Shown: piece by piece, positions 36,803 through 61,920 of the stretch
How the letters are laid out: the number at the start of each line of letters is the position of its first letter
How positions within the stretch are numbered: the stretch's first letter is position 1
DNA from: Cytophagales bacterium
Lineage (GTDB): Bacteria > Bacteroidota > Bacteroidia > Cytophagales > Cyclobacteriaceae
DNA length: 61,920 nucleotides
Direction: 5' to 3'
Assembly: GCA_017303805.1 (NCBI GenBank)
Contig: JAFLBQ010000012.1
Location: 1 to 61,920 of the forward strand
Program-made: the position numbers and the translations under genes
Notes under the pieces: model-generated
The model's database searches: none
Seen by the model: only the letters and a program-made list of their open reading frames with translations
Told to the model about the DNA's origin: nothing

Positions 36803-39800
36803 TTAAAAAGTCAAGTTCAGATTAAAACCGATATTACGGGTAGAAGGAGTTTGAAGGTTATCGCTACCCGGGTCTGGATCTACATTGGGCATCTTAGACC
36901 ACAATGCCAGGTTGCGGCCAACTAACCCAATGCTGGCGCGAGAAATAAATGTTTTAGACAAAATACTTTCAGGAACCTGATACATTAAAGTTATCTCTCT
37001 AAGTTTTACAAAAGATTGATTGTAATAGTGCGTGAGATATGCATTGCTCGTGTTAATGTTCCACGCAATGTAGTTTACAGGAGTAATGTTGGGCGCATAC
37101 ACGCGGGTGTCGCTTATAATATTGCCATCGCTATCATATTCTGCATTTCCTTCTACTACTACCAACCCGGGTGCTATGTACGAGGCAATTCCCCGATTGG
37201 CATCATCCCGATACGAATTAACTGTTCCCGGATGCGTACCACCCCACCACATTTTCTGGTTTGTGGTGGAGTACATTACTCCGCCAACACGTCCATCGAA
37301 TGAAACACCCAGCGTGTAGTTCTTGTAAGAGAAATTATTAGCAACACCAAAAATAAAATCCGGATCAGAGTACCCTTGTGGTCGCTGGTAGGGATCACTG
37401 AGTGGAAATCCGTTAGAACCCAGTATTAGCTTTCCACCGGGCGACCGCAGATAGTTAAACCAATAATTCTGATCCATCCGTTCGCCCACTTTTATCAACC
37501 CCAGGCGATCCGATCCATCAAAAGAAGATTTTAAGTACCGATGATACTGGCTGTAGTTGGCAATAATATTCCAGCTAAAAAATCCAGATTTGACAGGTAA
37601 CGCGGTAACCGTTATTTCAAATCCCTTTCTCAAAAATTCGCCTCCATTCACCAACCGGGCTGTGTACCCGCTGGCATTAGACATGGGCAATTCATAGATA
37701 TTATTAAAATCCCGAATGCTATACACGGCCGCATCAATACCTATTTTGTTGGAAAGAAACCGTACATCTATACCCGCTTCAAATGTCTCTGATGTTTCCG
37801 GGCTAATGTTGGGGTCGATTAATGTGCCCGGGAATTGCAAGGAAGGTGTGCCACCCCAATTAACCCCGGGGTCGTAGCCAGGTATATGCTGGTACGGATA
37901 CGTGCCCCGCACTTTTATCTGGCCATCGGTAACCTGCGACCACGAACCACGCACTTTTAAAAATGAAATTTTAGCGGCTGTTAAATCCATAAAATCAGAA
38001 ATTACACCCGCGAGCGAAACCGAAGGGTAGAAAAACGAATTGTTTTTAATCGGCATGGTAGAAACCCAATCCTGCCGGCCCGTTAAGCCAAGAAAAATTC
38101 CATTATAAAACTCGAGGTCGAGCGTACCAAATGCGCTGTTTACATTTTCTTCTTCAACACTATTGGTGCCGCGCAAGGGGTTCGCAGAATTACTCAGGTT
38201 ATAAAATCCCGGAATAACCAATCCATCCGTATTTTGTGTCTGGCTTCGGAAATTCCTCCATCGATTAGCCACACCAAAACTTGCCCGCAGAGCAATGTTT
38301 TCTCCAAGGCTTCTTTTGTATTGGGCTAACAGATCGGTATTAATATTCAGATACGATTGTGTGGAGAGTGAGAAATTACCAAGCGACACGTAATCGTAGG
38401 CTACATAACTCTTAGGTTCTTTCCAGGTGCGGTTAAGGCTGTATTGATTTATACCTGTCCGGAGCATTACATCCAGCCCAGGCATGATAGTGTAGTCTAA
38501 CTTTAATTGCCCGAAAACATTATCCTTATAGTAACCCCGCAGGTATTCATACGCTTGAAAATAAGGGTTGTTGTACCACGATTTATTATAGTTGCGTTGT
38601 TGAATCCCTTCGTTGCCTTTCTCCCAGTAGTTACGCAGGTCATTCACATCAATATCGGGCCCGGTCCATAACACAAGATTGTACAGGTAGTTAGTGGGGC
38701 CGTAGCCGGTTTCAGGAAAGTTATCGGTGTATTGGCGGTTATAGGTAAGGGAGGCATCGGCTTTAAAGTTTTTTGCCAGTTTATACCCGCCAGCAATACC
38801 AAACGAAGTATTATTTAATTGCGAATTGGGTACAATGCCGCGTTGGTAGTTGTTGGATACAGACAACCGGAAGTTGCCATCGGCATTGCCATTGCTAATG
38901 CTAACATTGTTGGTAGAGATTATTCCGGTTTGAAAAAAATCCCGCACATTATTTTTACCCCTCGATAAAAAGGGTGTGGGGATGCGGTCTCCGGTTATCT
39001 CATCTATTGGGCTATTGAATTGGGTCGTTTCCCAAAAACCGCTGGGCGTGGACGGATCCGGTTGATTTAATTTTGGACCCCATATCCAGCCCCCACCTTC
39101 TGTGCCGCCACCAGAACCATCTACATACGCATACTGACCATTGTAGCCATTACCATAGGTTGTTTGTACTTCTGGGATGCGGATAAACCCAGTCTGAAAC
39201 ATCGTGCTTGAATTTAGCTCCACCGTAGTTTTAGCTTTACTTCCTCTTTTGGTGGTAATCATTATGGCCCCGTTTCTTCCAATAGCACCATACAAAGCCG
39301 AAGCATTAGCTCCCTTCAGTACATCAAAGCTTTCGATGTCATCGGCATTTATTTTCCAGATGTCGGCATCTACATTGGGTACGCCATCTATTACAACCAG
39401 CGGTGTTGCTCCGCGCAACCGAATGCCCGGGTCTTGAAATAAGTCGGTTTGGTTGCGGATCTCTAAACCGGCCACTTTACCCGTTAGCGAATTGATCACA
39501 TTGGGTTCGCGGGCTTTTTGTATGGTGTTGCCATCTACTTTTTGTACGGCATACCCTAAAGATTTTACATCTTTTTGCACACCCAGGGCGGTAACAACCA
39601 CCTCGCTGAGTGCGGTTACATCTTCTTGTAACACAATCTCTAGCTGCGTTTGATTGTTTACGGCTACCTCTACGGTTTTATAGCCGATAAAACTAAGCGC
39701 CAACGTGGCGTTTGCCGAACTTAACGACAAGGTGAATCTTCCTTCGGCATCGGTAGAAGTTCCATTGGCGGTTCCCCGCTCCAAAACCGTTACCCCGGGT

Positions 39801-39949
39801 AGCGGCACATTACCATCAGAAACACGGCCAGAAACTAAAAAACCTTGCCCGTGTACCTGGGTAGTCATTGCAAGCATCCAAAAAATAGCGATAACCACAT
39901 ATCGTATTTCGGTGCCCGTTCTTTTGTGGTGAAGTAAAATTTGCATCAT
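36803..39949 (-). CDS. SusC/RagA-family TonB-dependent outer-membrane receptor
   Basis: 1048 residues from the first of two ATGs at 39949; signal peptide ends TQVHGQ. A carboxypeptidase-regulatory-like domain (about 40-115: VSGRVSDGNVPLPGVTVLERG) is followed by the TonB plug (PGIRLRGATPLVVIDG ... GRNGAIMITTKRG) and a large barrel ending in the aromatic NIGFNLNLTF. Energy-coupled importer working with the SusD protein. The operon continues with three lipoproteins, two of them phosphoesterases. A palindrome lies 14 bp upstream of the start. Confidence 0.96.
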   Translation of the reverse strand: MMQILLHHKRTGTEIRYVVIAIFWMLAMTTQVHGQGFLVSGRVSDGNVPLPGVTVLERGTANGTSTDAEGRFTLSLSSANATLALSFIGYKTVEVAVNNQTQLEIVLQEDVTALSEVVVTALGVQKDVKSLGYAVQKVDGNTIQKAREPNVINSLTGKVAGLEIRNQTDLFQDPGIRLRGATPLVVIDGVPNVDADIWKINADDIESFDVLKGANASALYGAIGRNGAIMITTKRGSKAKTTVELNSSTMFQTGFIRIPEVQTTYGNGYNGQYAYVDGSGGGTEGGGWIWGPKLNQPDPSTPSGFWETTQFNSPIDEITGDRIPTPFLSRGKNNVRDFFQTGIISTNNVSISNGNADGNFRLSVSNNYQRGIVPNSQLNNTSFGIAGGYKLAKNFKADASLTYNRQYTDNFPETGYGPTNYLYNLVLWTGPDIDVNDLRNYWEKGNEGIQQRNYNKSWYNNPYFQAYEYLRGYYKDNVFGQLKLDYTIMPGLDVMLRTGINQYSLNRTWKEPKSYVAYDYVSLGNFSLSTQSYLNINTDLLAQYKRSLGENIALRASFGVANRWRNFRSQTQNTDGLVIPGFYNLSNSANPLRGTNSVEEENVNSAFGTLDLEFYNGIFLGLTGRQDWVSTMPIKNNSFFYPSVSLAGVISDFMDLTAAKISFLKVRGSWSQVTDGQIKVRGTYPYQHIPGYDPGVNWGGTPSLQFPGTLIDPNISPETSETFEAGIDVRFLSNKIGIDAAVYSIRDFNNIYELPMSNASGYTARLVNGGEFLRKGFEITVTALPVKSGFFSWNIIANYSQYHRYLKSSFDGSDRLGLIKVGERMDQNYWFNYLRSPGGKLILGSNGFPLSDPYQRPQGYSDPDFIFGVANNFSYKNYTLGVSFDGRVGGVMYSTTNQKMWWGGTHPGTVNSYRDDANRGIASYIAPGLVVVEGNAEYDSDGNIISDTRVYAPNITPVNYIAWNINTSNAYLTHYYNQSFVKLREITLMYQVPESILSKTFISRASIGLVGRNLALWSKMPNVDPDPGSDNLQTPSTRNIGFNLNLTF

Positions 39950-39962
39950 GCGTAATTTATTT

Positions 39963-39980
39963 ATTGAATGATTATTCAAT
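39963..39980. promoter_or_regulatory. Palindrome ATTGAAT-N4-ATTCAAT between susC and a TetR gene
   Basis: A perfect 7-bp inverted repeat in the 101-bp AT-rich gap between the divergent susC-like and tetR genes. Half-site content (TTGAAT/ATTCAA) is typical of TetR-family operators, so it probably controls one or both genes. Confidence 0.6.
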
Positions 39981-50286: not shown

Positions 50287-50685
50287 TTATTCCCGATTGC
50301 TAATATTCATTTTCTGATACTCCCTGGGAGAAAAACCGGTTCCTCTTTTAAATGCGCTGGAAAAGGTTTGTAAACTGTCGTAGCCTACTTCATAGCATAC
50401 CTGCGCAACGGACAAACCATTTTTGATGAGTTCTTTAGCTTTATTGATGCGTAAGTCTTTCAGGTATTGCCGTGGAGTAGTGCCATATATCGTTTGAAAC
50501 AGACGGATATAATGGAAACGGGACATACAGGCTGCCATGGCTATCTTATCTAACTCTATCTTTTCTGAATAGCATTTTTCCATGAAATCTTTTGACTGTC
50601 TTACCTGCAAGTAATGATATTCAGGCAAGGCAGATTGTTCTATAACTTTTTCTAATTGCGTTTCATAATATGTTTTCTTTTTCAT
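50287..50685 (-). CDS. AraC-family transcriptional regulator (HTH domain only)
   Basis: 132 residues, mostly the double helix-turn-helix (about 30-130): MSRFHYIRLFQTIYGTTPRQYL, then NGLSVAQVCYEVGYDSLQTFSSAFKRGTG. No ligand-binding domain. Likely regulates the adjacent VOC gene (51 bp downstream) and perhaps the rest of the run. Confidence 0.92.
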   Translation of the reverse strand: MKKKTYYETQLEKVIEQSALPEYHYLQVRQSKDFMEKCYSEKIELDKIAMAACMSRFHYIRLFQTIYGTTPRQYLKDLRINKAKELIKNGLSVAQVCYEVGYDSLQTFSSAFKRGTGFSPREYQKMNISNRE

Positions 50686-50787
50686 GCCATATATGTGGTA
50701 TGGTTTGTATAATAATCAACTCCGGGTTGGACGTTCAATTAATATCAGTGGAGCAGAAACCATGTTGTTGTATGTCACCCTACAATG

Positions 50788-50921
50788 CCCGCTAACGTTT
50801 GTGCATAAGCAGTGGCGGGTGTTCGAAGCGCGTCACTGTCCCATGAAACCAAACGTAACTTTAAAACCAAACTACAAATTTACACTGAACCCCGCCATTG
50901 ATTATGCATTTTGTTGTGGCC
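50788..50921. repeat. attC-like imperfect palindrome 1 (134 bp)
   Basis: Left arm CCCGCTAACGTTTGTGCATA... ending GGCGGG at 50819; right arm CCCCGCCATTGATTATGC... ending GTTGTGGCC at 50921. The arms are related inverted copies separated by about 70 bp containing ACTGTCC and ACTTTAAAACC. Confidence 0.55.
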
Positions 50922-51362
50922 AGTTGGGCTTCGTCCGTAATCATCACACGACTCTTAATTTTTTCTCGGTCGATTATTTGAAGTCGGCCAGTTGTAAACT
51001 GTCAACGAAGCCCATATTTTATTGAGTCGATGTCGTTTTACTTTTTAGAGTCCACCGTCACTGTCCGCGGAAACGAAATTGAGTCCCCGTGTTGCGACCT
51101 GTCTGCCGAACCAGTCGTCTGTAGAATTGTAAACTGTCAGCGAAGAGAAAGTGGATTACCTAAAGCAGATATTCTTACTGTTTGCTTACAGTCGGCTCTG
51201 GGTCGCTTTTCTTGCTAAATACTCTTTTCACCTTCTTCCAGTTGGTGAAAATCGCTGCAAATAATAGTTCAAGAACTGTCTCCATTTTTGAATCCTTTAA
51301 AGAATATAAAGGTACACAATTTTATCCTTTGTCGTCTCTGTCCACGAAGCCGGCCGGCCCAA

Positions 51363-51498
51363 TTGGCCACAACGTTGGTGTTTGCGGTCGGGCGGGGTTT
51401 TTGAACTACGCCTTGTCCGCGTGTTGGCACTGCGAAAGATAACGGAAAGTTATGAGGACACCACACCCCCGCCTGACGCAAACACAGTGTTGTGCACA
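51363..51498. repeat. attC-like imperfect palindrome 2 (136 bp)
   Basis: Left arm TTGGCCACAACGTTGGTGTT... running to GGGCGGGGT (51398); right arm ACCCCCGCCTGACGCAAAC... running to GTTGTGCACA (51498). Arms pair CAAC/GTTG, GTTTGCG/CGCAAAC and GGGCGGGGT/ACCCCCGCC. Confidence 0.6.
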
Positions 51499-51758
51499 GG
51501 CGCCCAGACGACTTGTCCGCGGGGCAGCGACTTGTCGCCTGGCAGAATGGTGGAGCGGAAGACGCGGGGTCGGCCGTTATCCACGAAGTGCAGCAGATCA
51601 AAAACTGATGAACGTTCCATCGCGCGGTCGGCCGTTATAGAATGTCGCGTGGTTTGAAACTGCGACTTGTCGCAGTGTTGAATTTGCATTTGAAACGTTG
51701 TCGCCCGTGCGGCTGGAGCGCAAGTGGCCGACTGCCGTGCGGTCGGCTGCATTGCGCT

Positions 51759-51898
51759 TGTGCACAACGTTTTTGCGCTTGGCGTTCGTGCGGGATTTCA
51801 GGGCACAAAACTGTCAACCCAGCACTAAAGTTGATTTGAAAAACTGAACTTGAATTTAAGCACTTCACCCCGCATGACGCCAAACGCATGTTACCAGC
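51759..51898. repeat. attC-like imperfect palindrome 3 (140 bp)
   Basis: Left arm TTGTGCACAACGTTTTTGC... running to GTGCGGG (51794); right arm ACCCCGCATGACGCCAAAC... running to GTTACCAGC (51898). Same plan as the two elements before it: end core with GTT, GC(C)AAAC block and CCCGC inner arm. Confidence 0.55.
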
Positions 51899-52240
51899 TG
51901 GCGTTCTTGTCCACCGTGTCTGTAAACCATTGTCTTTATTGAGTTTTACTATCTTTTTCGTGTCGGTCTGTGCGGTTGGGTATTTTTTATTTTCAGAAGG
52001 GGAGGAGATTTTTTTTAATTCAAATTTGCCTGCTTGGGAAAGGTGGAAGCTCTTTTGCAAGCTTTGGTCTGTGCTTGGGCTTGTGCGGCTTGCAAATGTG
52101 CTTACACCTGTGAGATGGTTTGTCCTCATAACGACATTTTTACTCCGTTCCTTTTTAACCAGTTTTCATGTTCTCTGAAGTCAGGCATTTTTTTATCTAA
52201 TTCATTCCAAAACTCTGTCGAGTGGTTTGGATGCTTTAAG

Positions 52241-52247
52241 TGAACCC
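52241..52247. other. Probable chimeric junction between two genomes
   Basis: Composition and codon use switch abruptly here from AT-rich to very GC-rich, at a run of eight C. An in-frame TGA (52241-52243) belongs to the left side while a conserved glycosyltransferase tail is open from 52244 onward. Confidence 0.8.
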
Positions 52248-52591
52248 CCCCCGCCGAACGCGCCGCCACCGGCATCCTCGCCAGCAACTACGGAGAAGCC
52301 GGAGCCCTCGTCCACTACGGCCCCGCCCTCAACCTCCCCCCCGTCATGTCCCGTGTCAATTCCTTCTGGCTCCGTGGCTACGACCCCCGCCAACCCCAAA
52401 CCCTCATCGCCACCGGCTTCTCCCGCGAATTCGTCGAGCAACACTTCCAGTCCTGCGAACTCAAAGCCCAAATCACCAACTCACTAAACGTCGCCAACGA
52501 AGAGACAAAGTACAACAAGTACATCTGGCTCTGCCGCAACCCCCGCGACCCCTGGCCCATCCTCTGGCAAAAAATCCGCGTCTGGTCTTAG
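52244..52591 (+). CDS. Glycosyltransferase family 39 (ArnT/PMT-like), C-terminal fragment
   Basis: About 115 residues open from the junction to a TAG at 52591. The stretch PAERAATGILASNYGEAGAL, then YGPALNLPPVMSRVNSFWLRGY matches the periplasmic C-terminal domain of GT39 dolichyl-phosphate-mannose-type transferases, where the NYGEAGA motif is conserved. The membrane-spanning N-terminal two thirds are missing because the DNA on the left belongs to another genome. Its stop overlaps that of the convergent oxidoreductase gene. Confidence 0.7.
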   Translation, partial: TPPAERAATGILASNYGEAGALVHYGPALNLPPVMSRVNSFWLRGYDPRQPQTLIATGFSREFVEQHFQSCELKAQITNSLNVANEETKYNKYIWLCRNPRDPWPILWQKIRVWS

Positions 52592-54399
52592 CCGCTCCTC
52601 CGCCCCCGCCAAACCCCCTCAATCCACTCCCCACGCCGCCGCGCCTTCGGCATCTCCTTCACCCCCGCCGCCCGCGCCAACTCCCGCCACCGCCGCTCCG
52701 TCTCCCCATCCAACTCCTTCTCCAACTGCACCGCATGCCCCGGATACGCCCGGAAATACTGCCCCTCGATATTCGGACCCCGTTGTCCCGGTTGCCCCGG
52801 CGCAGGCTCCAACCCGTGCAGCCCGCCCTGCAAACCCCACCACTGCACCGCCGCAAACAGCCCGTGCTCCGGCCCCACATCGCTCACATACATCGTCGCC
52901 GCCCGCGCCTTGTGCAACCGCTCCTGCAGCGCCGCCACATCCACCTTCTGCACTGCCACCCGCCCCCGCCGCGCCTGCGCCGCCGCATGGCCCGCCGCCT
53001 GACCCAGCGCCATCCAAATCGGCTCCAGCCGAAGCGCGCAAAACCCCACATGCGACGAACTCACCGCCCCCGCTACCAGCAGGTTCTCCACCTCCTTCGG
53101 CACAAGCGTCCCATACGGCGCCTGGTACGGCATCACCGCTTTATAAAACTCCCCCACATGCTTCCCGCCGAACTTCGGACCCTCATGCGACGTCCCATGG
53201 CAGTTGTGGCTGTAATCCCCCATCGCCACCGCATCGCGATGCAACTTCGCCCGCGCATCCCCCGCCGCCTGCTCCGTGTCCCGCTCCGTGTAGACGTGCA
53301 AACCCGTCATCCGCCGCGCCTCGCGCACATACAACTGCGGCGGCAAATGCCCGCTCTCCACAAACTCATCGCGGCACCACCCGTACTCCCGCGACTCCGC
53401 ACGAAACCGCTCCGGCACCGCCGCATCGTTCTGCAGAAAATACAGCAGCCCCACATTCCACCGCACATGCCGCTCAAACACCCGCCGCCGCGCCGCTTCG
53501 TCGCCCTCCGGCCACTCCAAATTCTCCCCCGGCAGCGACAACCGCACCGCGCTCAACGACACATCGTTGATGTCATACTTCCCATTCGGCAGCATCGGAA
53601 TCTGCGCCTTGAAAATGCACGCGCTCGGATAGCCGAACACGCTCTTGATCCGCCCATCGGCCAGCAGCGGCAATACCCCTTCAAACTCCTCGCGCCGGTA
53701 CCCCGCCGGCTTCTCCACCGCCACCCGGTTCGCCGTCACCTTCGTCGCCGCAAACCGGAAGTTGTACGCCTGCAGTTGCTTGTCCCCCACCTCAGGCGCA
53801 AGCGACTCCCCATACTCCGCACGCCCCTCGCGACCCACCCGGTACGGCACCCCCGCCGCCGCCAGCAAATCGCCCTCATAGCTCGCATCGATGAACTGCC
53901 ACGCGCCGAACTCTACCTGTTTCCCGCCAACCTCGAACACAACCTTCCGTATCCGCCGCCCCTCGCGCTTCACCTCGCGCAGCACATGACTCGTCACCAC
54001 CCGCACCCCGCGCCGCTCGGCCAGCATCGCCTCAAACACCGCCAGGTTCACCTTCGGCTCGGCCTGCGTCCCGCGCCAGCAATCGCGCGCCTGCTGCGAG
54101 TCCTTCCCATACGCGCTCTCATAATGAGCCAGCACCCTCCGCGTGAACGCATAGTGCGCCCCCGACATCCCCTCAAACGTCCGGAAATCGGTATGCGACA
54201 GCCCGCACGTCACCAAACCGCCAATGCGCGCCGTCGGCTCCACCAGCAACACCCGCTCGCCGTCATCGGCCGCCGCCCACGCCGCCGCAATCCCCGCCGG
54301 CGTCGCGCCATAGATGACGACATCCCACTCCCCGCCCGTCTGCGCCGCGCCAAAGCCCACCGCGGCCGAGGCCGCCACGAATTCCCGTCTTCCGATCAT
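52588..54399 (-). CDS. Exported FAD-dependent oxidoreductase (FAD_oxidored family)
   Basis: 603 residues. A Tat-like leader (MIGRREFVAASAAVGFG) precedes the FAD Rossmann motif VVIYGATPAGIAAAWAAA and LLVEPTARIGG. Conserved downstream blocks include QFIDASYEGDLLAAAGV, EARRMTGL and SSSHVGFCALRLEPIWM near the end. Members (pfam12831 type, sometimes called xanthan-lyase-like) are numerous in Acidobacteriota and Planctomycetota, probably in sugar or secondary metabolite breakdown. Very GC-rich codon use unlike genes left of 52,240. Confidence 0.88.
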   Translation of the reverse strand: MIGRREFVAASAAVGFGAAQTGGEWDVVIYGATPAGIAAAWAAADDGERVLLVEPTARIGGLVTCGLSHTDFRTFEGMSGAHYAFTRRVLAHYESAYGKDSQQARDCWRGTQAEPKVNLAVFEAMLAERRGVRVVTSHVLREVKREGRRIRKVVFEVGGKQVEFGAWQFIDASYEGDLLAAAGVPYRVGREGRAEYGESLAPEVGDKQLQAYNFRFAATKVTANRVAVEKPAGYRREEFEGVLPLLADGRIKSVFGYPSACIFKAQIPMLPNGKYDINDVSLSAVRLSLPGENLEWPEGDEAARRRVFERHVRWNVGLLYFLQNDAAVPERFRAESREYGWCRDEFVESGHLPPQLYVREARRMTGLHVYTERDTEQAAGDARAKLHRDAVAMGDYSHNCHGTSHEGPKFGGKHVGEFYKAVMPYQAPYGTLVPKEVENLLVAGAVSSSHVGFCALRLEPIWMALGQAAGHAAAQARRGRVAVQKVDVAALQERLHKARAATMYVSDVGPEHGLFAAVQWWGLQGGLHGLEPAPGQPGQRGPNIEGQYFRAYPGHAVQLEKELDGETERRWRELARAAGVKEMPKARRRGEWIEGVWRGRRSG

Positions 54400-54441
54400 C
54401 GCCCGCTATCCTACCAGCGCCCAGGCCGCGCCGCCTCACAC

Positions 54442-54876
54442 CTACGAACCGATCTTGAACGGGTCGGGCGTCCACGGCAGATTCAACTGGTCGCCCAGTG
54501 CCAGATAAACAGGCCTGTTAATCCGAAACAACCGCACGTCCATCGCGAACAGCGTGCTGAAGGCCCCCGAGGAGAACGTCGCATCCGAATCTCCCACCCC
54601 GCCGCTCCTCGACGGCAGCGGATCGATCACCCCATCAGCCACCATCCGGAACCCGCGCTTCACCCCATTCGTCTGGTACTGCAAAATCGCCGCCCCCAGT
54701 GCCGCGTCAAACGGCCCCGTCGCCGCCACCGGCGGAATCCCCGCCGTCAATGGATCGCCCCCCTGCTGCAGCTTGATCAACAACTGCCGGATCAACTGCA
54801 CATCCTGATCCAAGTTGGGCTTCTTCGGCCCAACCGCTTTGTCCACGTCATACAGCGGCAAGTTCCGCTTCGCCAT
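54442..54876 (-). CDS. Hypothetical protein, possible peptidoglycan-binding-like fold
   Basis: 144 residues from the ATG at 54876, preceded by GGAGG at proper spacing. The segment NLDQDVQLIRQLLIKLQQG ... GPFDAALGAAILQYQTNGVKRGFRMVADGVIDPLP resembles a PG_binding_1 repeat (helix, F-x-x-x-x-x-A-I-x-x-Y/F-Q, DGxIDP). No signal peptide. Function unknown. Confidence 0.7.
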   Translation of the reverse strand: MAKRNLPLYDVDKAVGPKKPNLDQDVQLIRQLLIKLQQGGDPLTAGIPPVAATGPFDAALGAAILQYQTNGVKRGFRMVADGVIDPLPSRSGGVGDSDATFSSGAFSTLFAMDVRLFRINRPVYLALGDQLNLPWTPDPFKIGS

Positions 54877-54912
54877 CACGCCTCCGATGCACGGCGCCCA
54901 GCAGCGCCTCTG

Positions 54913-56133
54913 TTACTGCGCCATCCCCCGCGCTGCTATCGCCCAAACCGCCTCCACCTGCCCGCCCCGTGTGCAGTAAATGCGGTCATACAAATTCACC
55001 GTCGGATCGCAGTGCGGCGCGATCACCTCCACCCGGTCGCCCACCTGCAACTTCAGGGCGCCCTCCGTCGACGTCACCTTGGCATGTTCATCGCCGTTGA
55101 ACGCAAACTTGACGCCCGCCATCTTCAACAGCGGCACAAACGGCCGGTCCGTCGCCATCGCCTTATAGCCCGAATCGATGATCACATGCGCATCCGTCGG
55201 CCGGCTTACCACCGTCGCCTGAATCGTCAGCGCATTGCCAAAGTCCGCATAGTTCTCGCCCGTCTCCTTGCCGCCAATCAGGTTGTAATCCGTATCCATG
55301 AACATGAAGCTGCCCGGCTGCAACTCCGTGATCCCGTCAATCCCTGAGTCGATGTTGTACGTCCCCGTCGACCCCCCGCTCAGCCACGGCGTCTCCACGC
55401 CCCGCTTGTTCAACTCCGCCCGCGTCTCAATCGCCGGCGTCATCGCCGCAATCGACGCCGCCTTGCGCTTTTCCCATCCCTTCGTGTGCGACGCCCCGCC
55501 CGCATACGCCTGAATCCCTTTGAACCGCAGGTTGCCCAACTTCGCAATCTGCTCGCCTAGCGCCACCGCCGGAGCCCCCGGCATGATGCCAGTCCGCCCC
55601 GACACACACAAATCAATCGCCACCCACAGCTTCCGCTTCGCCGCCCCCGCCGCGTCGTTCAGGTCCTGCGCATTCTGCGCATTGTCCACGCAGAAAATCG
55701 TATCGGGCGCCACACCCGCCAACCGCACCGCCCGCTCAATCTTATGCTTGCCCACCACCGCCGTCGTCACCAGCAGCCCGCGCACGCCATGCGCCGCGAA
55801 CACCTCGGCCTCGCTCAACTTCGCCGCGCACGCCCCCAGCGCACCCTGCTTCACGATGTACTTCGCAATCTCCGGACACTTGTGCGTCTTCCCATGCGGC
55901 CGCAACGCGCGGTTGTTCGCCTTCGCATGCGCCACCATCTTCTTCACGTTTGCCTCGAACAAATCGAGGTCCAGCATCAGCGCCGGCGTCGGCACCTCGT
56001 CCTTCGCAATCCGCCCCTTCACATTCCCGCTCGCCATGATCTTTTCGATCTCCGCCCATGAGCGGGTCGTCGCCCCACGCAGCACCGCTGGTGCCGCCAT
56101 CGCTGCCGCCAAAAAGGTTCGCCGGTTCGTCAT
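54913..56133 (-). CDS. DSD1-family PLP-dependent enzyme (D-threonine aldolase / D-serine dehydratase-like)
   Basis: 406 residues with a Tat-like leader (MTNRRTFLAAAMAAPAVLRG). The alanine-racemase-type barrel has the PLP lysine in LRPHGKTHKCPE and GG-type phosphate loop in LSGGSTGTY. The C-terminal beta domain carries the zinc ligands His-x-Cys (APHCDPTVN). Homologues cleave D-threo-beta-hydroxy amino acids or dehydrate D-serine. The leader implies a periplasmic location, common for this family in Acidobacteriota. Confidence 0.9.
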   Translation of the reverse strand: MTNRRTFLAAAMAAPAVLRGATTRSWAEIEKIMASGNVKGRIAKDEVPTPALMLDLDLFEANVKKMVAHAKANNRALRPHGKTHKCPEIAKYIVKQGALGACAAKLSEAEVFAAHGVRGLLVTTAVVGKHKIERAVRLAGVAPDTIFCVDNAQNAQDLNDAAGAAKRKLWVAIDLCVSGRTGIMPGAPAVALGEQIAKLGNLRFKGIQAYAGGASHTKGWEKRKAASIAAMTPAIETRAELNKRGVETPWLSGGSTGTYNIDSGIDGITELQPGSFMFMDTDYNLIGGKETGENYADFGNALTIQATVVSRPTDAHVIIDSGYKAMATDRPFVPLLKMAGVKFAFNGDEHAKVTSTEGALKLQVGDRVEVIAPHCDPTVNLYDRIYCTRGGQVEAVWAIAARGMAQ

Positions 56134-56169
56134 AGTGATCCAGTGTAACCCGCTCTACCGCACCGCACC

Positions 56170-57129
56170 TTACCGCCCCCCACGCCGGAACCACAACACC
56201 ACGTCCGGCCGCGCCCCCGCCAGCAACTCCCCCTCCGCCGTCAGGTTCAACACATGCTGCCCTTGATACGACTCCACCATCCCCAACACCTTCCCTGACT
56301 CCCGATCCAACCGCAAGAACCACCCCGGCGCGCCATTCGGCTCGTTGAAGTGCTGCACGCCCACCCAAATGCCATCCCGCGCCGCCGCAATCGAAAACAC
56401 CTTCCCATGCATCTCCCACGTCCCCACATGCCGCCCCTCCATCGTGAACCGCTGCACGCGCCCGTTCTCCCGGTCGGCCACATACACCAGCCCCCGCGCA
56501 TCCACCGCAATCCCATGCGGCAAATGAAACTCCCCATCGCCCGCACCCGCGCGCCCCCACTCCCTCACCCGCTTCCCCGCGCTCGTAAACTCCACCACGC
56601 GCGCATTCCCATAACCATCGCTCACAAACACCCGCCCGCCCTCGCCAAACGCCACATCCGTCGTCCCGTTGAACCCGCTCTTGCCCGCCGGCTGCCCGCC
56701 CACCGCAATCTCCAGCAGCTTCTCGCCCCTCGCCGTGAACTTCATCACTCGCGAACTCGCCGCATCCACCGTCCACACATGCCCCGCCGCATCCACGCGA
56801 ATGCTATGCGCAATCGCAAACATCCCCTTCCCCCATGACCGCACGATGCGCCCCGCACCATCTACCACCAGCACCGGATCGGCCTTCTCCCCCCGCTGCA
56901 GCACATACAACAATCCGTCCCCACCCATCGCCACCGCCGACGGAAACCCCATCTCCCAACCCGCCCCCGGCGCCTTCACCTTCACCACCGTCTTCGTTAA
57001 CGCCAACCGCGGCGTCGCCCCCACCAGAGCCCGCAGTTTCGCCGCCTCGCCCTCCAAATCCCCCTTAACCGGCGCCTGCCCCCAAGCACACACCACCGTC
57101 GCCACAAACCCAGCAATCAACGCGCGCAT
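56170..57129 (-). CDS. Secreted NHL-repeat beta-propeller protein
   Basis: 319 residues from the ATG at 57129 with a signal peptide (VCAWGQA). At least four NHL-type repeats follow, for example DGLLYVLQRGEKADPVLVVD, GHVWTVDAASSRVMKF, GRVFVSDGYGNARVVEF and GLVYVADRENGRVQRF, each with the V(A/S)D...R(V/I) pattern. Likely a binding scaffold or a peptidyl-amidating-lyase relative; no catalytic residues can be assigned. Confidence 0.87.
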   Translation of the reverse strand: MRALIAGFVATVVCAWGQAPVKGDLEGEAAKLRALVGATPRLALTKTVVKVKAPGAGWEMGFPSAVAMGGDGLLYVLQRGEKADPVLVVDGAGRIVRSWGKGMFAIAHSIRVDAAGHVWTVDAASSRVMKFTARGEKLLEIAVGGQPAGKSGFNGTTDVAFGEGGRVFVSDGYGNARVVEFTSAGKRVREWGRAGAGDGEFHLPHGIAVDARGLVYVADRENGRVQRFTMEGRHVGTWEMHGKVFSIAAARDGIWVGVQHFNEPNGAPGWFLRLDRESGKVLGMVESYQGQHVLNLTAEGELLAGARPDVVLWFRRGGR

Positions 57130-57140
57130 GGGCAAGGAGT

Positions 57141-57578
57141 CTATCGCGCGCCCACGCCCCCGGCAAGCCCGGCCTCCTGAAAGCCCGCAAATCCCGGCCG
57201 CCGCCACAGCAGCAATGCCAGCAGAACCCCAGCGCCAACGTCATACGACATGCAGAACCCAGGCCAGTACGACGGCACCCCCCCGTTCTCAATCAAAAGG
57301 TGATGGAAGACATCGAACACCCCATGCCCCACCAGCCCCGCCGCCGCCCACCACAAGTTCTGTCTGAATCCCATCACCGCCGCTACGACAAACGCACCTG
57401 CCACCAACAACTCGCTCACCAGCGCCGCCCTCGATCCCCCCATCACGGCAAACAGGATGTAGTAACTGGCAACCACCACCGTCACCGTCGGATAGAAAAC
57501 CCGCTCGCGATCAAACCCCGTCAGCCAGGCGAACACGAATACCCCCACCGCCAGCCCACCCCCAACCAGGTATTCCAT
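57141..57578 (-). CDS. Integral membrane protein, unknown function
   Basis: 145 residues with about five hydrophobic segments (YLVGGGLAVGVFVFAWL, YILFAVMG, LLVAGAFVVAAVMGF, WWAAAGLVGHGVFDVFHH, VGAGVLLALLLW). The GHGVFDVFHHLL stretch with histidines in a helix resembles DUF6010-type proteins (from memory). It lies 11 bp upstream of the NHL gene. Confidence 0.6.
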   Translation of the reverse strand: MEYLVGGGLAVGVFVFAWLTGFDRERVFYPTVTVVVASYYILFAVMGGSRAALVSELLVAGAFVVAAVMGFRQNLWWAAAGLVGHGVFDVFHHLLIENGGVPSYWPGFCMSYDVGAGVLLALLLWRRPGFAGFQEAGLAGGVGAR

Positions 57579-57609
57579 GCATTCCTCCCCGCGCGATCAG
57601 CTCCCGACT

Positions 57610-58143
57610 CTACCTCACCGGCGTCCCATACGGCACCAGCGTCTTCACCCGCGCGGTCTCCTCCAGCCGCGCAATCTTCCACTCCCCACTCACCTCCACC
57701 ACAAACATCACCTGCACCTCATTCCGGTCCGCATACACATACTCCACCCGCGCCTTCACCTCGCGCCCGGTCAACCGCTCCGGCTCCGTAATCGCAATCC
57801 CCTTGATCGGCGCATTCGTCCGCTTCAAATACTCCGCAAACTTTGCCTCGCCGTTCTCCGCCAGCGATTGTTCCAGCAGCGTCGTCATCTGCCCCGTGAA
57901 GTACCCCATGTACGCCCGCACATCGCCCGCCCGCGCCGCATCCAACATCCCGTAGATCGCGTCCTGCGGCGACGGCGGCGCTTTCTCCAGCGGCGGCCCG
58001 CTTGCGTTCGACACCACATCGCTCACCGCGCCCCCCACATCCCCCGGCGCAAACCCCCGCTGCCGCGCCACCAGAAACACGGCGATCGCCGCGATCAGCA
58101 GACCCGTCAACGCCTGCGCCTTACGGTTTTGCTGTCGGCCCAT
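57610..58143 (-). CDS. Membrane-anchored protein with NTF2-like domain, linked to the SPFH operon
   Basis: 177 residues with one N-terminal helix (about 11-26), a low-complexity linker (SGPPLEKAPPSPQ) and a C-terminal SnoaL/NTF2-like region (AIYGMLDAARAGDVRAYMGYF ... VQVMFVVEVSGEWKIARLE). The ATG overlaps the end of the upstream HflK gene by 23 bp, so it is translated with it and probably works at the same membrane complex. Confidence 0.65.
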   Translation of the reverse strand: MGRQQNRKAQALTGLLIAAIAVFLVARQRGFAPGDVGGAVSDVVSNASGPPLEKAPPSPQDAIYGMLDAARAGDVRAYMGYFTGQMTTLLEQSLAENGEAKFAEYLKRTNAPIKGIAITEPERLTGREVKARVEYVYADRNEVQVMFVVEVSGEWKIARLEETARVKTLVPYGTPVR

Positions 58144-59149
58144 CGCCCTTCCGGATGATCGTCAAATCCAAATTCCCCCGGCTATCCACGATCAGCTTCT
58201 TGATCCGAGGCAGAATCTCCTCCATCGCCTCGGCATAGATCCGCCGCCCGTTCACATCCGCCGCCCGACCATACTCCACCGCCACCTGTGTGAACCGCGA
58301 AGCATCGCCCTGCGCCTCATTCACCTTCCGCAACTTATACCCCTGCGCCGCCTCCAGTAACTGCTGCCCCTCGCCGCGCGCCCTCGGAATCACATCGTTC
58401 GCATACCCCTGCGCCTCGCTCACAATCCGCGACGAGTCAGCCCGCGCACTGGCCACATCGCGAAACGCATCCGCTGCCTCCGGCGGCGGCGAGGCATTCT
58501 CAATGTTCACGCTCGCCAACTGCACCCCCGCCCGGTACTCGTTCAACACCCGCTGCGCCCCCGCCCTCACCTCCTCCTGAATCGCCGCCTTCTCCGTCGT
58601 CAACACCGAATCCACCGTCCGCCGTGCGATCCGCCGCGCCAGTTCGCTCTCCACCACCGCCCCGGTCAACTGCGCCACATCCGCGCTGCGAAACAGATAA
58701 TCCGCCGGAACAGCCACCGAATACTGCGTCACCACGCGTAAGTGCAAGATGTTCTGATCGCCCGTCAAAAACTGCGACGCCAGCGGCTGCAAACGTCCCA
58801 GCACCGTATCCGGCGCATCCCCTCCAATCACCCGCCGCTGAAACTGCCTTACCTTCAACTTAGTCACCGAATCCACAGGCCACGGCAGCGCATAGTGAAT
58901 CCCCGGCATCACCCGCGGCTCCACCACCGCCCCAAACCGCGTCACCACCGCCTGCTGATCCGCGCTCACGATGTACAACCCGCTCAGCACCCACAACAGC
59001 GCCGCGCCCCCCAACCAACGCCGCTTGTCCATGCCGCGCAGCTTGCCGAAATCCAGCCATTCCCAATGCAACAGGGGCAGGGAAGCGCCCTCCCCCCCAT
59101 GATCATGCCCATGCGAGTGCCCGCCGCCATGCGAGTGCGAATGCTCCAT
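58121..59149 (-). CDS. HflK-like SPFH protein with histidine-rich N-terminus
   Basis: 342 residues from the ATG at 59149; a GTG directly before it would also serve. The first 20 residues hold nine histidines in HSHSHGGGHSHGHDHGG, like metal-binding tails of CDF and P1B transporters. One transmembrane helix (about 46-62) is followed by the SPFH/band 7 domain (ADQQAVVTRFGAVVEPRVMPGIHYALPWPVD) and a long coiled region (GEGQQLLEAAQGY). HflK normally pairs with HflC to cage the FtsH protease. TGATG junction with the hflC stop. Confidence 0.88.
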   Translation of the reverse strand: MEHSHSHGGGHSHGHDHGGEGASLPLLHWEWLDFGKLRGMDKRRWLGGAALLWVLSGLYIVSADQQAVVTRFGAVVEPRVMPGIHYALPWPVDSVTKLKVRQFQRRVIGGDAPDTVLGRLQPLASQFLTGDQNILHLRVVTQYSVAVPADYLFRSADVAQLTGAVVESELARRIARRTVDSVLTTEKAAIQEEVRAGAQRVLNEYRAGVQLASVNIENASPPPEAADAFRDVASARADSSRIVSEAQGYANDVIPRARGEGQQLLEAAQGYKLRKVNEAQGDASRFTQVAVEYGRAADVNGRRIYAEAMEEILPRIKKLIVDSRGNLDLTIIRKGDGPTAKP

Positions 59150-60039
59150 CACTGCGCCGTCTCTCCCCGCATCAGGATCTTTAGTAACTCCGAATCCGAA
59201 CTCAAAATCGCCGTCGTCTTATCATCGAAAATCTTCTTGTAACTCTCCAACGTCCGCAGCAACTTATAAAAGCGCGGATTCTTCGAGTACGCCGCCGAAT
59301 ACACCCGCGTCGCCTCGGCATCGCCCTCACCCTTCGTCTTCTCCGCTTCCTTGTAGGCCGCCGATACAATCTCGTCCCGCTGCCGGTCCGCATCGGCGCG
59401 AATGCTCAACGCCTGCTCCTCGCCCTCGGCCCTGTACTGCCGCGCAATCCTCTCCCGCTCGGCCCGCATGCGCGCATACACGCTCTGCTTGTTCTGTTCC
59501 GGCAGGTTCAGCCGCTTGATCCGCACATCCACCACGCGAATCCCATACTCGGCCAGCGCGCTCCGCCCCGTCGTCGACGCCAGCGCATCCAGCATCGCCC
59601 CCGCCTTCACCGCCTCCGCGCTCGGCGAAATGATCGCTTCCAGGTCATGCGTTCCCAGCGCCGCGCTCAACCCGCTCCACACGATGTCGTGCAGCCGCAT
59701 CTCGGCCGCCACCGGATCGCCCACCGTCTCCACAAACCGCTGCGGATTCTCAATCCGCCACGCCACATAGCTCTCAATCACTAAGTTCTTCTTATCCCGT
59801 GTCAGAAACTCGCTCGGCCTCGGGTTATACACCCGCAGCCGCTGATCGAAAAACGTCGCATTCTGGAAAAACCACTTCGCATGAAGCCCCGCGCTCGTCA
59901 CCGTGTACATCGGCTTCCCGAACTGCGTCACCAACACAAACTCCGTCTCCCGCACCGCATAGAACGTCTGCCACACCAACAACAGTCCGAGCACAAAGCC
60001 CGCCGCCGGAACATACTTCTGGTGCCGTTCGGCAATCAT
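59149..60039 (-). CDS. HflC-like SPFH protein
   Basis: 296 residues. Transmembrane helix about 13-29, then the band 7 domain (ETEFVLVTQFGKPMYTVTSAGLHAKWFF), the HflC-typical FLTRDKKNLVIESYVAWRIENP and a coiled segment with ADADRQRDEIVSAAYKEAEKTKGEGDAEA. In E. coli HflC and HflK form a large cage around FtsH. Its ATG overlaps the upstream fusion gene's stop by 4 bp (ATGA), and its stop touches the second hflK. Confidence 0.92.
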   Translation of the reverse strand: MIAERHQKYVPAAGFVLGLLLVWQTFYAVRETEFVLVTQFGKPMYTVTSAGLHAKWFFQNATFFDQRLRVYNPRPSEFLTRDKKNLVIESYVAWRIENPQRFVETVGDPVAAEMRLHDIVWSGLSAALGTHDLEAIISPSAEAVKAGAMLDALASTTGRSALAEYGIRVVDVRIKRLNLPEQNKQSVYARMRAERERIARQYRAEGEEQALSIRADADRQRDEIVSAAYKEAEKTKGEGDAEATRVYSAAYSKNPRFYKLLRTLESYKKIFDDKTTAILSSDSELLKILMRGETAQ

Positions 60040-61919
60040 GGCTTTTCCTCCTCCTCAAGCGTAATCGGCACCGGTGCATTCCCCGCGCCCACCGCCGGCG
60101 CACGCAACTCCGCGCCATCCTCCAGCAGCATCAAATGCCGCCGCCCCTTCGTCGAATCCACAATCATCTTCCTCTTGCCCGGTAAGATCTGTTCCATCGT
60201 TTCTAAGTACAATCGCGTCTCCGTCGTCCCCGGCGAAGCCCGGAACGCCGACTCAAATTGAGTAAACCGGCTCGCATCCCCCGCCGCCCGCGCCTTGCGG
60301 CTTGCCGAATACCCCTGCGCCGTCCGCAAACTCGCCGCCGCCCGCCCCCGCGCCAGCGCCACCTGTTCGTTGCGATACCCCTCGGCCTCATTGATCAGCC
60401 GGTTCTTCTCCTCATACGCCCCCGACACATCCCGGAACGCATCCACCACTTCCACCGACGGATGCACATCCAGCAGCTTCACCTGCAACACCTCCACCCC
60501 CGTCTCATACCGCCGCAACCGCTCCTGCAACTCCTTCTTCGCCCGCTCCTCAATTGCCCGCCGCTTCACCGTCAACGCCTCATCCAATGGCGACGACGCA
60601 ATCACCCCCTGCAGCACGCTCTCCGACGCCGTCCTCACCACCGCCTCCCCATCCAAATGCCGGAACAAAAAGTCTTCCGGCTTCGCCAACCGGTAATGCA
60701 CCACCGCCGTCAGTTCCGTCATATTCTGATCGCCCGACAACATCAACGACTCTTCCGGCCGCCGTTGAAACCGCCCCGACCGGTGCTGCACATTCCATTC
60801 ATACGCCGCCGGCTCAAACTCCTCCGTGAACGTATTCGTCGAACGGAACCCAATCTCCACCACCCGTACCCGCCGCGCCTCCACCCGCGTCAGCGTCTCA
60901 ATCGGCCAGAACAATTTGTAGTGCAGCCCCGGTTCCTTGTGCGGCAACATCTTCTTCCCAAACCGCTCGATCACCCCGATTTCATTGGGCTGCAGCACAT
61001 AGAACCCGCTCAGCAACAGATACACCAGCCCCGCTGCCGCCACCGGCCGGTACAACTTCTGCCGCTGCTCCACCACATACAGGAACCACAGCTTTGGCTC
61101 CATCCGCGAAAGCCACAGCTTCACGCGATACCCCAATAGCCGCAGCCATCCCGCGTTCATCCACTCGCCCACCCGCCGCCGCAACCGCCCCACACCGCGA
61201 TCCTCCACCTCCAACAACCGCAGCGCATTCAGCATCACCAGGAACGACCCGATCTGATGCGTGAACGCCGCCCCTAGCGGGCCCAACCGCCCCGTCGACG
61301 CCAGCGCCACCGCCACCACGTTCACCCCAATCGCAAACACCAGAATGCTCTGCCACACAATGGCTACAGCCTTGCGGCTCACCTCAATCAGCTTCGGCAA
61401 CTGATCGAGCGACTGCCCCAGATACACCACCCCCGCCGCCTCGGCCGTGATGTCGCTCGCCCCCTTCACCGCAATGCCCACATGTGCCGCGGCCAGCGCC
61501 GGCGCATCGTTCACCCCATCGCCCACCATGCCCACCACGCGCCCCTGCGACATCCAATGCCGCACGCGCTCCAGCTTCTGCTCCGGCAGCAGCTCACTCT
61601 CCACGCTCGCAATCCCCGCCTCGCGCGCAATCACCTCCGCCGCACGCCGCCGGTCGCCCGTCAGCATCACCACATGCCCGATTTCCAACTCCTCTAACTC
61701 ATGCACCGCCGCATGCACGCCCGCCCGGATCCGGTCGCGCAGCAGAATCGCCCCCACATAGCGCCCTTCATCGGCCACCAACACCGCCGTCGCCCCCAAC
61801 CGGTCGGCTTCTTCCAGCGCCTCCTGCGGCGTGATCACCCCCGCCTCCTGCAAATACGCCGCATTCCCCGCGCGCACCACCCGCCCCTGCCACACACACT
61901 CCGCCCCGCGCCCCGGCAC
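60036..61919 (-). CDS. P1B-type metal ATPase fused to an HflK-type SPFH domain (5' end beyond window)
   Basis: 627 residues are visible and the frame is open to the window edge. Residues 1-240 are the C-terminal part of a P-type ATPase: P-domain TGDR (87-90), MVGDGVNDAPALA with the hinge GDGxND (133-138), and the last two membrane helices (about 187-208, 217-236) with NALRLLEV as in heavy-metal P1B pumps. A linker (240-285) leads to another helix (about 292-308) and a complete SPFH/HflK domain (310-590: PNEIGVIERFGKKMLPHKEP, SGDQNMTELTAVVHYRL, coiled GYRNEQVALARGRAAA). No stop or frameshift separates the parts. It is followed by HflC and a His-rich HflK. Confidence 0.9.
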   Translation of the reverse strand: MPGRGAECVWQGRVVRAGNAAYLQEAGVITPQEALEEADRLGATAVLVADEGRYVGAILLRDRIRAGVHAAVHELEELEIGHVVMLTGDRRRAAEVIAREAGIASVESELLPEQKLERVRHWMSQGRVVGMVGDGVNDAPALAAAHVGIAVKGASDITAEAAGVVYLGQSLDQLPKLIEVSRKAVAIVWQSILVFAIGVNVVAVALASTGRLGPLGAAFTHQIGSFLVMLNALRLLEVEDRGVGRLRRRVGEWMNAGWLRLLGYRVKLWLSRMEPKLWFLYVVEQRQKLYRPVAAAGLVYLLLSGFYVLQPNEIGVIERFGKKMLPHKEPGLHYKLFWPIETLTRVEARRVRVVEIGFRSTNTFTEEFEPAAYEWNVQHRSGRFQRRPEESLMLSGDQNMTELTAVVHYRLAKPEDFLFRHLDGEAVVRTASESVLQGVIASSPLDEALTVKRRAIEERAKKELQERLRRYETGVEVLQVKLLDVHPSVEVVDAFRDVSGAYEEKNRLINEAEGYRNEQVALARGRAAASLRTAQGYSASRKARAAGDASRFTQFESAFRASPGTTETRLYLETMEQILPGKRKMIVDSTKGRRHLMLLEDGAELRAPAVGAGNAPVPITLEEEEKP

Positions 61920-61920
61920 C

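Follow-up and report, generated by a model that had tools for sequence, protein, structure and literature searches.

Background

P1B-type metal ATPases have eight membrane helices and end in the cytosol, and HflK/C rings hold the protease FtsH. The HflK/C assembly has been described as consisting of 24 alternating subunits (PMC12048511) and as being oriented towards the periplasm (PMC2636767). A precedent for P1B pumps held by a scaffold is provided by the PacL1-CtpC "metal efflux platforms", as described in PMC9374683.

Here we describe a locus in a window of 61920 bases, an entire contig, in which the chain of a P1B ATPase continues into HflK. It was noted that the SPFH domain, the coiled coil and the C-terminal part align with the Escherichia coli HflK/HflC complex (SPFH3 family; 7vhp, 7wi3, 9cz1, 9cz2), and that the HflC partner is encoded in the same operon in both. 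Compared to that complex, the window adds a metal exporter before HflK in the same chain and has two hflK genes, whose products (K1 and K2 below) fall outside the sampled stand-alone HflK group, from which E. coli HflK was left out. With P1B ATPases (TIGR01525; the Zn/Cd pumps 4umv and 7qbz) the window protein shares the P-domain and its TGD and GDGxND motifs, with CPC and DKTGT being seen in its relatives only. Unlike these pumps, its C-terminus continues into HflK, its last helix carries HQxxS, and the HMA domain is absent in the three relatives scanned. In the PacL1-CtpC platforms a scaffold with a metal-binding segment similarly keeps a P1B pump in a membrane assembly of high molecular weight; however, PacL1 is a separate small DUF1490 protein and not an SPFH protein, and the foci are reported not to require flotillin (PMC9374683).

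Among the open PMC papers listed in our searches, none dealt with a joining of HflK to metal exporters. The main text of a 2009 survey of prokaryotic SPFH proteins contained no word beginning with "ATPase" (PMC2636767). The fused proteins may well be listed in protein-architecture databases without comment.

Structure of the fusion gene

The sequence-only reading of the window had described a P1B P-domain, two membrane helices and HflK in a single uninterrupted frame, and this was borne out by the 627-codon open frame at 60036-61919 of the minus strand together with its Pfam and NCBIfam matches. The chain runs from the P-domain through the last two membrane helices and a basic linker to a complete HflK, with the following parts:

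60036..61919, minus strand: P1B-ATPase::HflK fusion (K1), 627 codons, cut at its 5' end by the contig end (open reading frame, Pfam and NCBIfam)
61482..61880, minus strand: HAD-type P-domain of the ATPase, residues 14-146, with LTGD and GDGVND (Pfam PF00702, Hydrolase, E 5.2e-17)
61203..61409, minus strand: last two membrane helices of the ATPase, residues 171-239, with HQIGS in the final one (AlphaFold2 helices 171-208 and 214-239, and motif)
61041..61211, minus strand: linker of 57 residues, 13 K/R against 6 D/E (residue count)
61008..61064, minus strand: predicted membrane helix of the HflK part, residues 286-304 (AlphaFold2)
60123..61004, minus strand: HflK SPFH domain, coiled coil and C-terminal part (TIGR01933; alignment to E. 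coli HflK in 7vhp, 7wi3, 9cz1 and 9cz2)

The first 236 residues constitute the ATPase end. Residues 2-235 matched the heavy-metal ATPase model TIGR01525 (E 5.5e-60), and as the gene is truncated, only positions 323-560 of the 560 in the model were covered; with the N-terminal half missing, the score was 203.8 bits against a cut-off of 346.25. In the HflK part, Pfam Band_7 was found at residues 308-514 (E 1.1e-18) and NCBIfam hflK (TIGR01933) at residues 306-599 (210.2 bits, above the cut-off of 159.4), and the SPFH domain, coiled coil and C-terminal part aligned in sequence with residues 146-356 of E. coli HflK (E 4.9e-38). By the positive-inside rule the linker would be cytosolic. The HQxxS motif of the last helix was considered as a guide to the identity of the metal and was set aside as not decisive.

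The AlphaFold2 model of the window protein (21 sequences; mean pLDDT 71.8, pTM 0.40) contained three long helices (171-208, 214-239 and 489-561), a helical linker, the helix 286-304 and an SPFH-like part. Foldseek matched this model both to HflK of HflK/C complexes (E 4.5e-14) and to P1B ATPases (E 1.1e-13). With an rmsd of about 29 A and a TM-score of 0.2 on the query and 0.45 on the target, the HflK matches tell which domains exist and not how these are arranged. All of the PDB HflK chains matched came from HflK/C or FtsH-HflK/C structures.

The fusion gene runs off the end of the contig, and the N-terminus of the ATPase is therefore absent from the assembly; the GTG "start" is meaningless, since it is simply the in-frame codon that comes first where the contig ends. 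The missing N-terminus was not found in the gene's own genome, where the six actuator domains detected lay at least 5.7 kb from contig ends.

The operon and its neighbours

Three further genes follow the fusion on the same strand:

59149..60039, minus strand: HflC, overlapping the fusion by 4 bases (TIGR01932, 219.3 bits, cut-off 134.4)
58121..59152, minus strand: second HflK (HflK2), overlapping hflC by 4 bases as listed (TIGR01933, 208.6 bits; K2 group in the trees)
59087..59146, minus strand: N-terminal tail of HflK2, rich in His with 7 in 20 residues (His count)
57610..58143, minus strand: 177-residue protein, gene four of the operon (a homologue occupies the corresponding position in 19 of 22 relative loci)

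As listed, HflK2 overlaps the gene of the 177-residue protein by 23 bases. This protein had no Pfam match at E 0.01 and none over the cut-off, and ftsH is not among the four genes. A promoter scan of 56000-61920 found none, with 1.1 expected by chance. Homologues of all four genes were encountered in the same order in 19 of the 22 relative loci, comprising 18 of the 19 from the Acidobacteriota phylum and L146. Among the others, L171 lies on a short contig that shows the fusion and hflC, L051 has an extra gene without a match to the 177-residue protein, and L147 carries the fusion alone, with neither hflC nor hflK2.

We searched 376 genomes for HflC, 18 fusion genomes included, and found it in 144. 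Another, better-scoring hflC was located elsewhere in 17 of the 18 fusion genomes, with G936 showing operon-level scores only, and on this ground the operon is a second, dedicated SPFH set. Nine neighbouring proteins were scanned without a metal regulator being recognised, and the PacL-type scaffold (DUF1490) gave no Pfam match at E 0.001 among seven window proteins. A gene for a 251-residue protein without a Pfam match over the cut-off stood upstream of the fusion in four of ten loci listed (L191, L192, L198, L204).

Occurrence of the fusion in other genomes

The covalent joining of a P1B pump to an HflK domain, as first read from the window, was confirmed by the same join in 22 other genomes. 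A frameshift or assembly error at the join can thereby be ruled out, and the fusion is real and not an artefact. The survey by phylum covered two phyla, those of an Acidobacteriota and a Planctomycetota genome. In the Acidobacteriota phylum (query L082) the fusion was present in 19 of 396 genomes (E 1e-70), in agreement with the earlier suggestion that some Acidobacteriota share it. In the Planctomycetota phylum it was present in 3 of 294 genomes, the query genome, that of L051, included (E 1e-95, two candidates scored per genome), and the other ten matches had frames of 688-882 codons and were plain pumps. In a scan of GTDB contigs, L051 (Gemmataceae), with a protein of 1138 residues consisting of a whole ATPase and then HflK, was the only one spanning both parts among the best 80 of at least 588 confirmed relatives. 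L067 and L125 were rejected as fusions, as they are plain-ATPase loci in which the matches ran slightly past the pump.

The closest relative of the window protein was the G936 fusion, with 45% identity. The fusion was full length in 21 of 22 relatives (L171 is cut by its contig end), and all 22 possessed CPC, DKTGT, TGE, TGD, GDG[VI]ND and, in the last helix, H[QE]xxS. The TGE, CPC and DKTGT motifs that had been predicted for the N-terminal part, which the window lacks, were thus found in its relatives; the metal-binding domain expected upstream was not, with no HMA domain in the three scanned with Pfam. The TIGR01525 scores of three full-length relatives were 548.7, 585.6 and 492.6 bits. When the Gemmataceae fusion was modelled (mean pLDDT 68.8, pTM 0.54), the secondary structure of a complete pump appeared as expected, followed by a linker helix, the helix 726-755 and the long helix 960-1031. 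K1, HflC and HflK2 lay on one strand in 20 of the 22 P1B fusion loci.

Other exporters joined to the K1 lineage

It was noted that K1 is also fused to cation diffusion facilitators (CDF; 4 loci), to SO_0444 Cu/Zn exporters (12 loci) and to a degenerate CDF-like domain. The P1B fusion, whose novelty had been left to be tested, is not unique, being one version of a wider K1-HflC-HflK2 operon. The order K1-HflC-HflK2 was found in all 16 CDF and SO_0444 loci, and overall on one strand in 49 of 54 loci, the rest being L147, L171 and three without a detected second HflK.

We examined six loci with a partial HflC match but no fusion match (L235-L240). In L235 and L237 K1 is joined to CDF (L235, TIGR01297, 85.0 against a cut-off of 82.35; L237 by its likeness to L235) and in L236 to an SO_0444 Cu/Zn exporter (NF033936, 385.5 against 300), all in the order K1-HflC-HflK2; the HflK and HflC of L239 are unfused, and L238 and L240 are truncated close to the ends of their contigs. 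A search for HflK in the Planctomycetota phylum gave a match in 143 of 294 genomes. Among the matches listed, 39 frames had at least 550 codons: three P1B fusions, four second HflKs already counted, and 32 that were examined, of which 29 were judged by eye to be true fusions. The remaining L271, L294 and L300 were rejected by eye, since their upstream part gives the impression of a frame that is open by chance. The 29 fusions among the matches listed comprised 11 SO_0444 (ten over the cut-off, with L273 cut by its contig end), two CDF that passed the cut-off, and 16 whose membrane domain could not be matched to a family (7 scanned with NCBIfam and 10 with Pfam, L281 with both).

In profile comparisons, the domain of these 16 matched the CDF part with 97.3% probability (E 2e-11; 8 sequences) or 95.8% (15 sequences). 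The other seven alone gave 1.0% against CDF and 98.3% against the first eight, and the 15 gave 0.1% against SO_0444 and 0.4% against P1B. Two HxxxD motifs, 101-129 residues apart, were present in all four CDF parts, and PLCSCS was present in 11 of 12 SO_0444 parts, the twelfth being cut. The HxxxD pair was found in none of the 16 CDF-like parts within the first 240 residues, which indicates that K1 is not always in need of an active exporter.

Histidine-rich segments

Stretches with at least 6 His in 20 residues were counted at the start of the SPFH proteins, in segments that were all about 115 residues long. Such stretches, which lie next to the membrane, occurred in 19 of 23 P1B loci compared to 0 of 77 loci without a fused HflK (L239, L271, L294 and L300 included), and among the other fusions in 2 of 16 family-unmatched, 0 of 12 SO_0444 and 0 of 4 CDF loci. 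When the whole exporter part was also scanned, 5 of 12 SO_0444 loci had one. The place varied among the P1B loci: the HflK2 tail in the window, the linker between pump and HflK in L171 and L188-L190, and the start of HflC in all 14 of L191-L204, whose fusion itself also starts with 5-6 His in 20. All of these places would face the cytosol if the usual topologies hold. Of the 19 His-rich loci, 14 form one group of near relatives and 4 another, so that the counts amount to about three events.

Phylogeny of the HflK, HflC and ATPase parts

A careful tree was built from 63 HflK domains. In it, stand-alone HflK (support 100/100), K2 (94/93) and all K1 (82/71) each formed one side of a branch. The stand-alone HflK were 15 sequences from three sampled sets, with E. 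coli HflK left out, and K1 did not group with them. Within K1, the P1B form was supported at 95/90 and the SO_0444 form weakly (75/57), while the family-unmatched group (100/95) stood beside two CDF forms (99/68); the four CDF-K1 forms were not one group in the HflK trees. A quick tree of 107 HflK gave the same groups, with a support of 19 for the branch between K1 and the rest. K1 as one group is only moderately supported.

For the fused ATPase parts a single origin gave an AU p of 0.824, and the tree holding them together was better by 17.6. They may be considered compatible with one origin, and such a grouping was not seen in the free quick tree. In the HflC tree, operon and other HflC needed two changes, the minimum possible being one, and the branch of L294 was very long. 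The simplest history would be one K1-C-K2 set whose exporter was exchanged.

A putative cage for metal exporters

From the fusion and its conserved operon, the intact catalytic and CPC motifs of the relatives, the joining of K1 to unrelated metal exporters, the separate dedicated SPFH set and the His-rich segments, we consider it probable that the P1B pump joined to HflK forms, together with HflC and HflK2, a dedicated HflK/C-type ring or cage carrying metal exporters at its base. The C-terminus of the pump is joined to HflK, and as P1B pumps end and HflK starts in the cytosol, both topologies would be kept by the join, with the pump domains in the cytosol and the SPFH domain and coiled coil in the periplasm. 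K1, HflC and HflK2 may then build a ring like the 24-subunit HflK/C assembly with the pumps at its base, in which the fusion copies would be held in a defined array. The His-rich cytosolic segments of one or another subunit would gather metal, which would leave through the pump into a membrane patch or chamber bounded by the ring. Such an arrangement is plausible because scaffolded P1B pumps are known from PacL1-CtpC, as described in PMC9374683. We infer the assembly, the transport, its direction and its metal; the likeliest cargo would be a divalent transition metal such as Zn.

Alternatively, the fusion may couple the pump to FtsH, with the HflK part recruiting the pump to FtsH-HflK/C so that metal sets the level of the pump or the activity of FtsH, and export is secondary. 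The source of the matched PDB chains, all from HflK/C or FtsH-HflK/C structures (as described in PMC12048511), would favour this, but K1 and K2 are separate from sampled stand-alone HflK (100/100), the four operon genes do not include ftsH, and 17 of 18 fusion genomes own another hflC, whose set probably fills the FtsH role. We therefore regard such a coupling as unlikely. It also appears improbable that the ring uses the transporter part mainly as an anchor in the membrane or as a spacer, with transport lost or incidental. The degenerate CDF-like versions seemingly behave in this way, as 16 of 29 K1 in the Planctomycetota phylum (among the matches listed) are CDF-related by profile only, without a family match or HxxxD pair. 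However, the motifs are kept in 22/22 P1B, 4/4 CDF and 11/12 SO_0444 parts (one cut), and kept catalytic and metal-site motifs count against a bare anchor, which would not need them; the His-rich segments also argue against it.

Several observations were counted against the metal-exporting cage itself. HflK/C rings are known to hold FtsH, which may be either included in or excluded from the ring proposed here. The 16 CDF-like K1 are without the HxxxD pair, L147 is without hflC and hflK2, and the His counts are not independent. SO_0444 and CDF loci showed no His stretch in the equal-length test, the support for K1 is moderate, and no metal regulator was recognised.

More tentatively, K1 could serve a second SPFH machine as its general docking subunit, at which metal exporters of unrelated families (P1B ATPase, CDF, SO_0444) were exchanged for one another. 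The ring would then make a caged array out of single pumps and let them export metal into a bounded compartment of the membrane or the periplasm. If true, this would be a new class of transport machine. The data suggest a little-known class of caged metal exporters, and that scaffolded metal efflux, known from mycobacterial PacL1-CtpC, occurs in quite different form in Acidobacteriota and Planctomycetota. Here the cage subunit is joined to exporters of known chemistry, so that the cargo is defined and an activity (metal efflux, ATP hydrolysis) can be measured, and the effect of caging on a membrane protein thereby becomes directly testable.

Provenance of the fusion-bearing segment

The fusion and its operon lie in the following stretch:

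52245..61920, no strand: high-GC stretch foreign to the remaining contig, with both ends inside open frames (GC, tetranucleotides)

The GC content was 0.64 in the 52.2-61.9 kb stretch compared to 0.45 elsewhere on the contig; in 2-kb steps it was 0.36-0.49 over 1-52 kb and 0.63-0.65 over 52-60 kb, and twelve 15-kb pieces of the genome's other contigs had 0.36-0.47. Tetranucleotide correlation with these pieces was 0.80-0.97 for the left part and -0.34 to 0.08 for the right part, which is partly a GC effect, and 9.6-kb pieces of the left part correlated with its remainder at 0.91-0.97. The sequence-only reading had missed this compositionally foreign last 9.7 kb. The left part encodes a SusC/RagA protein (36803-39979), a type of protein characteristic of Bacteroidota. 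The start of the right part, at about 52245, interrupts an open frame, and its end falls within the ATPase; the cut frame (52244-52591), presumably GT39-like from its look, had no Pfam match over the cut-off.

Because the composition is foreign and both ends of the stretch are cut mid-frame, the contig is very probably chimeric, with Acidobacteriota-like DNA on a Bacteroidota-like contig, and the 9.7-kb segment is probably foreign to the genome where it is filed. Among 58 genomes related to the host (E 1e-20) and among 395 (E 1e-45, three candidates scored per genome), its own genome alone had the fusion, and the other 57 of the first set had no fusion or HflK match. With a chimeric contig, these searches describe the relatives of the host and not those of the fusion.

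A true acquisition of the stretch by the Bacteroidota-like genome through lateral transfer, in place of a joining in assembly, would agree with the window having no N and with the discussion of lateral transfer of SPFH operons in PMC2636767. It seems quite doubtful, given the open frames cut at both ends (52245 and the contig end), the tetranucleotide composition, unlike the remainder even if partly through GC, and the 57 relatives without a fusion or HflK match, in which DNA matches to 52500-60036 were limited to two of 59 and 51 bases. A plasmid home was also considered: tblastn of plasmids (E 1e-35) returned three records, all annotated hflK, with none covering 80% of the query. Judged from its nearest relatives found here (G936), the right part appears Acidobacteriota-like.

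Exporters joined to HflK

It was noted that HflK is also joined to exporters other than P1B-ATPases, at three loci from the phylum of an Acidobacteriota genome:

L236:9329-11449, SO_0444 Cu/Zn exporter fused to HflK
L235:3356-5119, CDF exporter fused to HflK
L237:7029-8801, CDF exporter fused to HflK (CDF assigned by likeness to L235)

Among loci from Planctomycetota-phylum genomes (L281, L284-L293, L295-L298 and L301), the membrane domain fused to HflK is CDF-like but matches no known family, and it appears to be a degenerate exporter.

The linker between pump and HflK was strikingly His-rich in one P1B-ATPase fusion locus (L190:3986-7072), and K1, the HflK lineage fused to exporters, has a stretch with 10 His in 20 residues in its sister L188.

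Directly upstream of the fusion at a further P1B locus lies a gene with counterparts in L191, L192 and L198:

L204:2829-3584, 251-residue protein

This is probably a membrane protein; a Pfam scan of it matched no family over the cut-off.

Composition of the window

Stepwise GC along the window rises abruptly from ~45% to 64% at 52230-52260, within an open frame, a break that probably represents a false join of DNA from two organisms. Numerous short direct and inverted repeats were noted at 50680-52240, immediately left of the composition change.
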